Shown here in pieces: positions 32,112 through 36,239 of a DNA stretch of 64,000 nucleotides. Location of the stretch: positions 62,001 to 126,000 of the forward strand of contig QAYY01000015.1 of NCBI GenBank assembly GCA_003054665.1, in the 5' to 3' direction. The stretch comes from Opitutaceae bacterium EW11 (GTDB taxonomy: Bacteria > Verrucomicrobiota > Verrucomicrobiia > Opitutales > Opitutaceae). Both the position numbers and the translations under genes were made by a program. The notes beneath the pieces were generated by a model. It ran no database searches and was not told the DNA's origin. It saw only the letters and a program-made list of their open reading frames with translations. The first letter of the stretch is position 1, and each line of letters begins with the position of its first letter.

Positions 32112-32146
32112 GCGCCGCGACGGCGCACTTTCCCGAAACGCGGGAA
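32112..32146. other. two tandem hairpins upstream of bufA2
   Basis: GCGCCG/CGGCGC (32112-32117 with 32121-32126, 3-base loop) and TTCCCG/CGGGAA (32130-32135 with 32141-32146, 5-base loop) are two perfect 6-bp palindromes separated by 3 bases. They sit 94 bases before the bufA2 start. Neither is followed by a T-run. They may be operators or a leader structure. No clear promoter pair is visible, although the GGGAAT at 32142-32147 could be an ECF -35 element. Confidence 0.4.
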
Positions 32147-32239
32147 TAAAGCAGGCGCTGCGTGCTCTGACTTCCGTCGACGTTGATTCGCATTCTTTCG
32201 GATGCGGCGTTCGACGAACTCCTCGAAGTCACCCACGCA

Positions 32240-32581
32240 ATGATCAAGTCCACCAAAACCCTCCTCGCCTGCGCAGCCCTGTCCGGCCTCTACGCCGGAG
32301 CGCTCTCCGCCCGGTCCTACGGCGCAACCCCGGTCGAGGCCGGTTCGAAACACACCGTGCAACTCGCCGACAAGGACAAGGCGTCCTGTTCGGGCAAAGA
32401 CGGCTGCAGCGCCAAAGACAAGGACAGCTGCAAGGGTCTGCACGACTGCAAAGGCAAAAACGCCTGCAAGGGCCAGGGCGGATGCAAATCCGGCGACAAC
32501 GGCTGCAGGGGAAAAAACTCGTGCAAGGGCCACGGCGGCTGCTCCACGGCGCAAAAGCCCGCCGATCACGGCAAGGCCTGA
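32240..32581 (+). CDS. bufA2: BufA2-type cysteine-rich bufferin precursor (RiPP metallophore)
   Basis: A 113-residue exported precursor. Residues 1-29 form a signal peptide (Lys-rich start, LLACAALSGLYAGAL). The mature part has nine cysteines (50, 56, 64, 70, 76, 82, 89, 95, 101), mostly six residues apart, inside the repeated pattern C-K-G-x-x-x-C. This matches bufferins of the BufA2 class. The MNIO partner is known in the family to convert cysteines into sulfur heterocycles that bind copper in the periplasm; metal specificity here is inferred. ATG at 32240 is chosen over a TTG at 32183 because the signal peptide starts here. The next gene is bufB. Confidence 0.85.
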   Translation: MIKSTKTLLACAALSGLYAGALSARSYGATPVEAGSKHTVQLADKDKASCSGKDGCSAKDKDSCKGLHDCKGKNACKGQGGCKSGDNGCRGKNSCKGHGGCSTAQKPADHGKA

Positions 32582-32629
32582 TTCCACCGGCGGCCGCCGT
32601 TCCGACGGCGGCTCTCTCATCCTACTGCC

Positions 32630-33487
32630 ATGCCTGCGAATCGCCACAACGGATACACCGACTACGGGATCGGACTGGGGCTACGGGTGCCGCACTACCG
32701 GCATATCCTCGCCGAGCGGCCCACCTGCGCCTGGTTCGAGATCATCTCCGAAAACTTCATGGTCGACGGAGGACGTCCGCTCGAAGTCCTCGACGCCATC
32801 CTCGAACAATATCAGGTCGTCCAGCACGGCGTTTCACTCTACCTCGGTTCGGCCGACAAGATTGACCGCGCGCACCTGCGCCGGCTGAAGACCCTGGTAA
32901 AGCGCACGAAAACGCCCTGGCTCTCCGATCACTTGTGCTGGGGCAGCGTCGACGGCACCTATACGCACGATCTCCTGCCCATGCCTTACACCCGCGAGGC
33001 GGCCATTCGCACGGCGGAGAAGATCCGGTCGGTGCGGGATTTCCTGGAGGTGCCGATCTGCGTCGAAAACGTCAGCTCCTACATGGAGTTTCACGCCTCG
33101 GAGATGACAGAGTGGGAATTCCTCACCGAGGTCGTCGAGCGCGCCGACTGCGGAATCCTTCTCGACGTAAACAACATCTACGTCTCCTCCCGCAATCACG
33201 GCTTCGACCCTCGCCGCTACATCGACTCCATTCCGCACCACCGGGTCGGCCAGATGCACATCGCCGGGCACACGAAGTTCGAGAAGTACATCGTGGATAC
33301 ACACGATCACCCCGTGCTGGATCCGGTGTGGGAACTCTACACGCGCGCCACCCGTCTCTGCGGTGTCACCGCCACGCTCCTCGAATGGGACGACAAGATT
33401 CCCTCGTTCGACGAAGTGCACGCAGAGGCACTCAAAGCCAACCGCTACATCGAGGCCGCCCGTGCCGCGCAAAAAGACTCCAATTGA
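32630..33487 (+). CDS. bufB: MNIO (DUF692) bufferin maturase
   Basis: A 285-residue multinuclear non-heme iron-dependent oxidase (DUF692), the enzyme class that modifies cysteines of RiPP precursors (MbnB, HvfB, BufB). The TIM-barrel iron ligands are visible: Glu41 (SENFM), His66 (QHGVSL), Asp100-His101 (SDHLCW), Glu146-Asn147 (VENVSS), Asp179-Asn181 (DVNN), His210 and His214 (HIAGH), Asp223-His225 (VDTHDHP) and Glu252. The gene follows bufA2 by 48 bp and overlaps bufC. It should act in the cytoplasm before export of the peptide. Confidence 0.93.
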   Translation: MPANRHNGYTDYGIGLGLRVPHYRHILAERPTCAWFEIISENFMVDGGRPLEVLDAILEQYQVVQHGVSLYLGSADKIDRAHLRRLKTLVKRTKTPWLSDHLCWGSVDGTYTHDLLPMPYTREAAIRTAEKIRSVRDFLEVPICVENVSSYMEFHASEMTEWEFLTEVVERADCGILLDVNNIYVSSRNHGFDPRRYIDSIPHHRVGQMHIAGHTKFEKYIVDTHDHPVLDPVWELYTRATRLCGVTATLLEWDDKIPSFDEVHAEALKANRYIEAARAAQKDSN

Positions 33488-34391
33488 GCGTCGCGCCCTA
33501 CCGAACCTCGCTCCCAATGATCTGGCGGGGTGGCAGCGCACGATGCACGCGGCGATCACCCGTCCGCTGGCGCGCGGCGACCGCGCGCAGCGTCGCTGGT
33601 TTGACGGCACGTCTTCCGACCGGGCCCTCGCGAGACTGGTCAAGCCGAGCCGCACGCTTCGCCCGGTGGAGCGGGTGGAAATCTACAATCGCATGTATTG
33701 GTTCCGGCTCCTCGACAGCCTCGCCCAGGATTTCCCCGCACTTCGGGCGCACTTGGGAGAGCAGCGGTTCTGGGACCTCGCCGAACGTTACCTCGCCGCA
33801 CATCCTTCCCGCTCCTTCACGCTGCGAAATCTCGGCCGGAGACTCCCTCGTTTTCTCCGAGCGCATCCGGAGCTGGTCCACCCGGATGGGCCAGCCGCCG
33901 TCGATCTGGCTCGTTTCGAGTGGGCACAGGTGGTCGCGTTCGACGGACTCGAGCGGCCTCCGCTCGAACCCACCGCGCTGGCTGCGGCGGATCCCGCCAC
34001 GGTTCGCATCGGTCTCCAACCGTACGTCACGCTGCTCGCGGTCCGGCATCCGGTCGACGACTTCGTGATCAGGCTGAAACAGGAAGAACGGCTCCGCTCC
34101 GCCGCCAGCAACGCGACACAGGAGACGCTGGAACCGCAGCGGAATCACGAGCCGCTTGCCCCCTGCCCCGTGCTCGACCTCGCCGTCCATCGAGTCGCGA
34201 ACCAACTCTACTACAAACGCCTCGCTCCGGAGGCCGCCCTATTGCTCCGCCGCCTGCGCGCCGGTCACAGCCTCGCCGACGCGTGCTCGGTCGCGTTTCG
34301 AGCGAGCCGCATCGATCCCGAACTCCAATCCCAGTTGGTCCGCGACTGGTTTTCCACCTGGACGCGCCTCGGCTGGCTCTGCGCGGCGTAA
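33462..34391 (+). CDS. bufC: DUF2063 / HvfC-BufC N-terminal domain protein
   Basis: A 309-residue DUF2063 protein, the partner that with the MNIO enzyme forms the maturation complex and presents the precursor. The N-terminal segment 'WQRTMHAAITRPLARGD' and 'RVEIYNRMYWFRLLDSLAQDFPALRAHLGEQRFWDLAERYLAAHPS' are family hallmarks. The start is GTG at 33462, overlapping bufB by 26 bases, with GAGG six bases upstream; no ATG lies in frame before the conserved region. The C-terminal half (from about residue 145) is the usual helical part. Confidence 0.9.
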   Translation: MPRKKTPIERRALPNLAPNDLAGWQRTMHAAITRPLARGDRAQRRWFDGTSSDRALARLVKPSRTLRPVERVEIYNRMYWFRLLDSLAQDFPALRAHLGEQRFWDLAERYLAAHPSRSFTLRNLGRRLPRFLRAHPELVHPDGPAAVDLARFEWAQVVAFDGLERPPLEPTALAAADPATVRIGLQPYVTLLAVRHPVDDFVIRLKQEERLRSAASNATQETLEPQRNHEPLAPCPVLDLAVHRVANQLYYKRLAPEAALLLRRLRAGHSLADACSVAFRASRIDPELQSQLVRDWFSTWTRLGWLCAA

Positions 34392-34491
34392 CCTCTCCGA
34401 AGAATGACTGGTCGCTTCGGCCCGAAGCCTTCCACCCGCTAGGTCCGACGCCGCTCCCGTCGCGTTCCCCTGCCTGACTCTCCGTTTTTCC

Positions 34492-34959
34492 ATGAACCTC
34501 TCCTCCGCGTATTCGCGTTTCCACTCCGTCTCCGAACGGCTCCGTTCTCCGCTACTGCTGATTATCCGAGTGTTCTGGGGAGCGCAGTTCATCCAGACCG
34601 GCTGGGGAAAACTCACGCACCTGGAACGCACCACGGAGTATTTTGCCAGCCTCGGAATACCGGCGGCCCATCTCAACGCCCTTGCGGCGGGAAGCACGGA
34701 ATGCCTCGGCGGGCTGCTCCTCCTTCTCGGGCTCGGCGCACGGTTGGCCAGCGTGCCGTTGCTCGCGACGATGGCGGTCGCTTACGCGACGGCGGAGCGC
34801 GACGCGTTCGGTGCGCTCTTCCGCGAGCCGGACAAGTTCACCTCCGCAGCGCCGTTCCTGTTTCTCCTCGCCAGCCTCATCGTCCTCGCCTTCGGGCCGG
34901 GTGCGTTCTCGCTCGACCGTTTGCTCCTTCACGAGAATTCGATACAAAGGAAGACCTGA
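34492..34959 (+). CDS. DoxX family membrane protein (bufferin operon)
   Basis: A 155-residue DoxX protein with four transmembrane helices: about 20-37, 65-85, 88-104 and 124-143. The pattern 'RVFWGAQFIQTGWGKLTHLERTTEYFASLGIP' is typical. DoxX genes commonly accompany DUF692-DUF2063 pairs; their role may be quinone- or sulfur-linked redox support in the membrane. It begins 100 bp after bufC and ends 10 bp before the sigma gene, so the set is likely one transcript. Confidence 0.9.
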   Translation: MNLSSAYSRFHSVSERLRSPLLLIIRVFWGAQFIQTGWGKLTHLERTTEYFASLGIPAAHLNALAAGSTECLGGLLLLLGLGARLASVPLLATMAVAYATAERDAFGALFREPDKFTSAAPFLFLLASLIVLAFGPGAFSLDRLLLHENSIQRKT

Positions 34960-34969
34960 CGCCGCCCCG

Positions 34970-35521
34970 ATGCCCGACGACGCCTTCAGTCAGCTGGTGG
35001 ATCAGTTCTACCCTTCGCTTTACCGCTTCGCCCTGAGCATGGCCCGAAGCGAGGCGGATGCCTGCGATCTCACCCAGCAGACTTTCTACATCTGGGCGCA
35101 GAAAGGCCACGCGCTGCGCGAAGCGGCCAAAGCCAAGTCCTGGCTCTTCACCACGCTCTATCGCGAGTTTCTCCGGAGCCGGCGCCGCGGCGAGCGTTTG
35201 ACCGCGCTCGAGTCCATTCCCGAAAGCCAGCTGGAAGACGTCGCCCTGGAGCCGGAGACCGTCGCCGCGCTGGACGGAAGCGCCGTGCTCGAGGCGCTTC
35301 AACGCGTGGACGAGCTCTTCCGCGCCCCTCTGACCTTGTTCTATCTGGAAATGCTCTCGTATCAGGAAATCGCGGACGCGCTCGATGTCCCCGTCGGCAC
35401 GGTGATGTCTCGCCTTTCGCGGGGCAAGGCGCAGCTGCGGGCCTGTCTTTCCTCGCGCACCGTCTCAACCACGGGCAAGGTCGTGTCCCTCCCGCTCAAC
35501 AAGAAAGCCTCCCATGGATAA
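34970..35521 (+). CDS. ECF RNA polymerase sigma factor (bufferin operon)
   Basis: A 183-residue ECF sigma factor. Region 2 (FALSMARSEADACDLTQQTFYIWAQKG and AKSWLFTTLYREFLRSRRRGE) and region 4 (RAPLTLFYLEMLSYQEIADALDVPVGTVMSRLSRGKAQLR) are complete. The start follows DoxX by ten bases and the end overlaps the next gene by eight bases. It is the natural candidate to switch on the bufferin operon under metal stress. ATG at 34970 (MPDDAFSQL) is chosen because it opens region 2. Confidence 0.9.
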   Translation: MPDDAFSQLVDQFYPSLYRFALSMARSEADACDLTQQTFYIWAQKGHALREAAKAKSWLFTTLYREFLRSRRRGERLTALESIPESQLEDVALEPETVAALDGSAVLEALQRVDELFRAPLTLFYLEMLSYQEIADALDVPVGTVMSRLSRGKAQLRACLSSRTVSTTGKVVSLPLNKKASHG

Positions 35522-36239
35522 CCAAGAGGCAAGATTCATCCTCAAGGCATACCGGTCCAATGGAGCCGATGCCGGCGACCCGGCGTTCCGCGAGGCTCTC
35601 GAACAGGCTCAGCGCGATCCTGCGCTGCGCGAATGGTTTTCTGAGCAACAGGCCCTGGACCAGGCCGTCGCCGGGAAATTGAAGTCGATCCCGGCTCCCG
35701 CTTCCCTTCGCGAGTCGATTCTCGCCGGAGCGCGGGCAGGCAGCGTGCGGCGGAGCTGGTGGCGAAGTCAGGCTTGGCTCGCAATCGCCGCGGGGTTGAT
35801 GGTGGCGATCGGATTGTCCTTCGCGTGGAGACAGGTCAAAGCCGGGCGCGCCCTGGACCGCCTTGCGGAGTTCGCCGCCTACGATCTGCTTCACGGGCAA
35901 CACGGAGGCCGGGGCGAAGAAGTCCATCGGCTGGTCGCCATGCTCGAGGATCGTTCCACCCATCTCGCCGCCGGTCTGAACATCGATCCTCAGAAGCTCG
36001 GAGCCACGGGCTGCCGGAGCCTGAGCTTCGCCGGGCACGAATTCATCGAAATCTGTTTTGCCCGAAACGGAGCCGAGTTTCACCTGTACCTCGCTCGCCG
36101 GGGCGACTTGGTCCCGGCAGGCAAGGGTCCACGCTTCGCGCAGGCAGGCAAAGCGTCGACCATGGTGTGGAGCGACGCCAACTTCGTTTACGTCGTCGCC
36201 GGCGACAGCGGAACGGATCGCCTGCGAGCGCTGCTCTAG
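35514..36239 (+). CDS. membrane anti-sigma-like protein (bufferin operon)
   Basis: A 241-residue protein with a cytoplasmic N-terminal half that includes 'ALEQAQRDPALREWFSEQQALDQAV' and a predicted single transmembrane helix at about 84-104 (WLAIAAGLMVAIGLSFAW). A periplasmic C-terminal part (about 105-241) carries two cysteines (Cys167 and Cys182, in GCRSLSF and EICFARN). The size, layout and 8-bp overlap with the sigma gene fit an anti-sigma factor. No zinc-binding HxxxCxxC motif is present. The cysteines could sense metal or redox state; that is inference. Confidence 0.72.
   Translation: MDNQEARFILKAYRSNGADAGDPAFREALEQAQRDPALREWFSEQQALDQAVAGKLKSIPAPASLRESILAGARAGSVRRSWWRSQAWLAIAAGLMVAIGLSFAWRQVKAGRALDRLAEFAAYDLLHGQHGGRGEEVHRLVAMLEDRSTHLAAGLNIDPQKLGATGCRSLSFAGHEFIEICFARNGAEFHLYLARRGDLVPAGKGPRFAQAGKASTMVWSDANFVYVVAGDSGTDRLRALL

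Follow-up and report, generated by a model that had tools for sequence, protein, structure and literature searches.

A predicted sigma/anti-sigma switch controlling a Buf2-like bufferin operon in an Opitutaceae bacterium

Background and main finding

In Caulobacter, the extracytoplasmic function (ECF) sigma factor SigF governs a copper-induced regulon that includes two Buf1 bufferin operons and MsrPQ, and a sigF mutant is copper-sensitive (PMC3511200, PMC8224329). For one NrsF-type anti-sigma protein, a periplasmic cysteine has been proposed as the signal sensor (PMC8315932). A survey of bufferin clusters reported sigma and NrsF genes in Buf1 clusters, and none in Buf2 clusters (PMC12452194). 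Here, we analyzed a stretch of 64,000 nucleotides (nt) from Opitutaceae bacterium EW11 (phylum Verrucomicrobiota; contig QAYY01000015.1, positions 62,001–126,000; hereafter “the window”), which carries a Buf2-like bufferin operon followed by genes for an ECF sigma factor and a membrane anti-sigma protein. We consider it likely that this operon is directly controlled by the sigma factor it encodes, which would be released from the anti-sigma protein by periplasmic stress. No paper linking bufferin, its multinuclear non-heme iron-dependent oxidative enzyme (MNIO) or this regulon with Verrucomicrobia or Opitutaceae was found in the open PubMed Central literature.

As read from the sequence, the control logic is like that of SigF/NrsF (ECF16), but the anti-sigma protein, the promoter and the precursor family are different. 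Within what the Caulobacter reports describe (PMC3511200, PMC8224329), both systems combine an ECF sigma factor and a membrane anti-sigma protein with a bufferin operon containing MNIO, DUF2063 and DoxX genes, include a periplasmic methionine sulfoxide reductase (Msr) in the regulon, and place a sigma-type promoter also 5' of the sigma gene. On the other hand, the precursor is Buf1 (DUF2282) there and Buf2-like here, the anti-sigma protein is NrsF there whereas the one in the window has no NrsF match, the promoter is GTAACC-N16-CGAA there (PMC3511200) versus GGAATA-N16/17-CTC here, and the Caulobacter regulon has MsrPQ while the Opitutaceae relatives have MsrA and MsrB. Two NrsF-adjacent sigma factors of this phylum were 23% and 27% identical to the window sigma factor (local BLASTP; long branches in the tree, with a poor L282 row set aside). 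The core order of precursor, MNIO and DUF2063 genes, plus DoxX, is that of Buf2 clusters, although the window precursor scores below the NCBIfam BufA2 cut-off and the survey gives no sigma or NrsF genes for such clusters (PMC12452194).

Layout of the operon

The promoter and the six genes of the window are as follows:

32143..32171, + strand: predicted ECF promoter, GGAATA-N16-CTCTGA; the window's top site by matrices from other genomes' sigma-gene promoters, 97 nt 5' of the bufA2 ATG
32240..32581, + strand: bufA2-like precursor, 113 aa; BufA2 match below cut-off, signal-peptide-like N terminus
32630..33487, + strand: bufB, MNIO maturase; NF050167 and PF05114 above cut-off
33483..34391 (start uncertain), + strand: bufC, DUF2063 partner; PF09836 63.5 bits, cut-off 27.2
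34492..34959, + strand: doxX; PF07681 74.8 bits, cut-off 23.6
34970..35521, + strand: ECF sigma factor; Sigma70_r2 39.6 and r4_2 48.5 bits, both above cut-off; family and tree
35514..36239, + strand: putative single-pass anti-sigma protein with periplasmic C167, C181 and H190; sub-cut-off DUF3379 and anti-sigma matches, conservation and structural model

Coordinates and profile matches bear out the one-strand series of six genes (32240–36239) described in the original prediction, as well as its overlaps or short gaps at most junctions: 48 nt separate the precursor from bufB, bufB and bufC abut or overlap, bufC and doxX are 100 nt apart, doxX and the sigma gene 10 nt, and the sigma and anti-sigma genes overlap by 8 nt. 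The uncertainty for bufC concerns candidate starts at ATT 33483, CTG 33522 and ATG 33543, with no in-frame ATG, GTG or TTG found from the bufB stop to the DUF2063 domain. BufB qualifies as a BufB-type MNIO (NF050167 353.3 bits, cut-off 310; 3bww match at 1.4e-49), and the locus has the DUF2063 partner and the bufABC gene order of a bufferin operon. The host genome (6.4 Mb, 45 contigs) contains a single MNIO match.

The precursor has nine cysteines after a signal-like N terminus (judged by eye), six of them inside a CKGKNACKGQGGC-type core. Its sole NCBIfam match is BufA2 (NF050166), at 34.8 bits for a curated cut-off of 60, and because of this score we call it Buf2-like rather than filing it as BufA2; the bufA2 identity originally proposed thus holds for the only family matched, but not at that family's cut-off. 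Among ten precursors of the phylum, including that of the window, nine matched BufA2 and none reached 60 bits (best 50.6).

Promoter evidence for control by the encoded sigma factor

Since ECF sigma factors often transcribe their own genes, we searched upstream of the sigma genes of this family in other genomes. The motif GGAATA-N15-17-CTC was found within 150 nt upstream of 69 of 95 distinct sigma genes, in 65 cases at 34–44 nt from the start, while 100 dinucleotide shuffles yielded a mean of 0.1 and a maximum of 1 sigma genes with the motif. A matrix built from these 69 sigma-gene promoters, none of them from this genome, was then run on both strands of the window: the top site was at 32143, immediately ahead of the bufferin genes, with 24.7 bits against 8.1 for the runner-up. 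Dropping the sites within buf clusters (L006, L208, L214) left a 66-site matrix, again free of sites from this genome, with the same top site (25.0 bits; runner-up 8.5). The claim of the original prediction that the sigma factor switches on the operon is therefore supported by both the motif upstream of its relatives and the position of the top site.

We next considered the other bufferin-type loci of the phylum. In a sample of 387 genomes, 34 had an MNIO match (32 above cut-off). Outside the own genome, 30 of 34 MNIO matches were examined as loci, and 19 of the 30 had a precursor like that of the window by motif or similarity. With the 66-site matrix, a site of ≥13.9 bits was present 5' of the precursor in 16 of these 19 loci, sigma-linked or unlinked (in L022, 270 nt from the precursor), and L161, L175 and L214 also had a site 5' of the precursor (27.2, 23.6, and 16.9 bits). 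As precursor sites occur in loci without a linked sigma gene, the wiring is kept in genomes encoding the sigma factor elsewhere. L019, L025 and L026 also had sites of ≥13.9 bits that were not near the start of a buf, doxX or sigma gene. The own genome has a single close sigma factor of this family, the next best being 30% identical. Overall, these comparisons lead us to hold that the encoded sigma factor drives the bufferin operon. The sigma and anti-sigma genes could instead be passengers beside the operon, controlling something else, as might be suggested by the many relatives whose pair is not next to buf genes; this is very improbable, since sigma-unlinked genomes keep a sigma-type promoter 5' of bufA2 and the window's own top site precedes bufA2.

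Linkage of the sigma/anti-sigma pair to bufferin clusters

A relative of the anti-sigma protein (E 0.001 or better) was detected in 69 of the 387 genomes. Of the 19 other loci with a similar precursor, five hold sigma and anti-sigma genes of this family inside the cluster: L002, L003, L005 and L013 share the gene order of the window, and L006 has sigma, anti-sigma and doxX first. Among 68 loci found by the anti-sigma protein, the pair is also inside a buf cluster in L161, L175, L208 and L214, and in L224 a buf cluster lies ~2 kb from the pair on the opposite strand. Because the pair recurs in these 5 of 19 loci and in L161, L175, L208 and L214, its presence in the bufferin cluster of the window is more than chance, as judged from gene neighborhoods. 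On the sigma tree, the buf-linked copies require three state changes, only one of which is forced by well-supported branches; buf-linked copies may therefore have had a single origin followed by losses.

Bufferin-type clusters can also adjoin other regulators: a distant, different type of ECF sigma gene is next to doxX in L004 (8817–9497), L008 (4940–5563) and L026 (9099–9695). Other MNIO clusters differ in their precursors. In L028, L030 and L031 (family f10), precursors start with a signal-like segment and contain several repeats built around DKDKDDCPGKDKEKKE, each holding one cysteine, and a promoter site of the same type lies 0.5–0.75 kb 5' of bufB (19.0, 16.3, and 21.2 bits). The precursors of L020, L021, L027 and L014 carry many CKGKDG-like hexapeptides in place of the GGC-containing six-cysteine core. 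In L010, a possible precursor of 237 residues with RR in its N terminus and seven cysteines lies 5' of bufB, and the matrix scan found no site of the GGAATA-type promoter there.

Predicted regulon in the own genome and in relatives

To delineate the regulon, we used the stricter pattern GGAATAN{15,17}CTCYNAY, which matched 122 times across 22 genomes versus 11 times for its reversed control, and seven times versus once in the own genome. By matrix, three of the seven own-genome matches scored 24.7 (bufA2), 24.4 (L066) and 11.6 bits (L062); the other four (L063, L064, L067, L068) were viewed solely as reading frames. The regulon in this genome hence looks nearly restricted to the operon. Besides the bufA2 site, the L066 site (position 1501; G000:C11:54934) was the one high scorer seen in the own genome, and the protein that follows it has sub-threshold matches to PEP-CTERM (18.1 bits, threshold 20.7) and Spondin_N (12.7 bits, threshold 24); a similar protein also follows a site in G099.

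Across genomes, the genes recurring after sites encode the precursor, the sigma factor, MsrB, MsrA and DoxX, and, more rarely, TlpA-like, DsbD-like, DUF1223-like and spondin-like proteins (named by eye from sequence). Of 19 genomes of the Opitutaceae family, selected for having the anti-sigma protein or MNIO, 16 (G060 included) carry the motif before MsrB and 14 before MsrA; for MsrB, the exceptions were G152, without an MsrB match, and G018 and G289, without a site before the gene. A simple rule based on hydrophobicity assigns a signal-like N terminus to nearly all Msr proteins behind the motif. As the sigma family of these relatives seems to run MsrA, MsrB and doxX too, the stress answered there is probably broader than metal chelation. 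The originally predicted metal-chelating system switched on by the sigma factor thus stands as to sigma control, yet is too narrow for relatives with the motif also before MsrA, MsrB and doxX.

These Msr genes bring in a possible, if less probable, alternative, i.e., that the system mainly answers oxidants (HOCl and other thiol or methionine oxidants), like the hypochlorite systems of SigF/NrsF type, with bufferin auxiliary and copper incidental. This explanation would fit the finding that most of the 19 relatives carry the motif before MsrA and MsrB, and also a Brucella NrsF-type pair that is HOCl-induced and controls a methionine-rich peptide and an MsrQP-like system (PMC8315932). However, in this genome bufA2 retains the motif and the two Msr genes do not have it, and the comparable Caulobacter regulon is required for copper tolerance.

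Several other observations weigh against direct control of a bufferin operon by the sigma factor it encodes. The motif is absent upstream of 26 of the 95 sigma genes; six of these (L002, L003, L005, L013, L161, L175) sit after doxX in the buf operon, a position in which a sigma gene needs no promoter of its own. No site of ≥13.9 bits was found 5' of the precursor in three of the 19 loci (L004, L008, L016), and L016 has a site 5' of doxX instead (19.7 bits). G357 has promoter sites, yet no sigma factor (E 1e-12) or anti-sigma protein was found in it, perhaps because of an assembly gap. The own msrA and msrB were rejected as regulon members, with no upstream site by either pattern or matrix, and the precursor stays under the BufA2 cut-off.

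A putative cysteine-cysteine-histidine site in the anti-sigma protein

The periplasmic cysteines to which the original prediction had drawn attention proved to be conserved. Both cysteines beyond the membrane segment are kept in 36 of 36 proteins in a first set, including that of the window, and a second, partly overlapping set retained C167 in 45 of 45, C181 in 43 of 45 and H190 in 43 of 45. The protein matches DUF3379 (PF11859) at 29.3 bits, below the gathering score of 33.2, as do two of four relatives (31.0 and 27.9 bits). NrsF (PF06532) was considered and rejected as its identity, the protein having no NrsF match; NrsF occurs in 6 of the 387 genomes of the phylum, and in none of the own genome or its Opitutaceae family.

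An AlphaFold2 model (mean predicted local distance difference test 90.0, predicted template modeling score 0.61) has a helical N-terminal part, a long helix at 86–127 that includes the membrane segment, and a beta-rich outer domain; the predicted cytoplasmic part covers about residues 1–85. Based on its strands 168–172, 175–184 and 187–195, C181 would face H190 near C167, as read from the secondary structure. RseB and MucB are the periplasmic sensors of the RseA and MucA systems. In a Foldseek search with the outer domain, RseB/MucB took 8 of the 9 top rows, although the best match was weak (E 6.7e-3), and superposition on their C-terminal domain gave a middling Z of 6.1 (root mean square deviation 3.5 over 80 residues). 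Unlike in these systems, the anti-sigma and RseB-like parts would share one protein here, and the profile search found no solved relative of the protein and no sequence match to RseB/MucB.

Proposed mechanism and significance

Comparison between genomes supports the operon, its promoter wiring, the regulon and the conserved cysteines and histidine; from these we infer the sequestration and release of the sigma factor, its contact with the anti-sigma protein, the signal, and the chemistry and function of the peptide. Without stress, the anti-sigma protein would keep the sigma factor at the membrane. Copper or oxidative stress in the periplasm would change its outer domain, most likely through metallation or oxidation of the C167/C181/H190 site, and free the sigma factor, which would guide RNA polymerase to GGAATA-N16/17-CTC promoters. 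Firing of the bufA2 promoter would then yield the peptide, its maturases, and more sigma factor and anti-sigma protein, i.e., a positive loop with a brake, while most of the examined relatives within Opitutaceae would have separate sigma-type promoters for MsrA, MsrB and doxX. The exported, MNIO-modified cysteine peptide would bind metal, and the Msr enzymes would repair oxidized methionines. In a bufferin, the cysteines would be converted to thiooxazoles, which absorb near 305 nm (PMC12452194, PMC13097082). The metal might be other than copper (gold, silver, mercury or zinc), given that gold-induced genes include bufferin operons and that some bufferins are fused to MerC; this is unlikely, as a Caulobacter bufferin was found to chelate copper when tested (PMC12452194).

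We give an even chance to a broader proposal, namely that a class of sigma/anti-sigma switch with a built-in RseB-like periplasmic domain and a Cys-Cys-His sensor evolved independently in Verrucomicrobiota. This switch would be convergent with proteobacterial SigF/NrsF and couple bufferin production to methionine sulfoxide repair; in some lineages, the bufferin operon would have taken it up as a switch of its own that amplifies itself. Buf2-type clusters, without sigma genes in the published survey (PMC12452194), would gain a defined predicted regulator and promoter, and regulons can be predicted across Opitutaceae. If this sigma/anti-sigma pair is unrelated to SigF/NrsF, two phyla would have independently joined copper-buffering peptides and periplasmic methionine repair under one switch, and both defenses would then answer one physiological problem. 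The pair and its promoter motif were also seen in L221, a record titled as a Klebsiella pneumoniae metagenome-assembled genome, which is probably a mislabeled bin.

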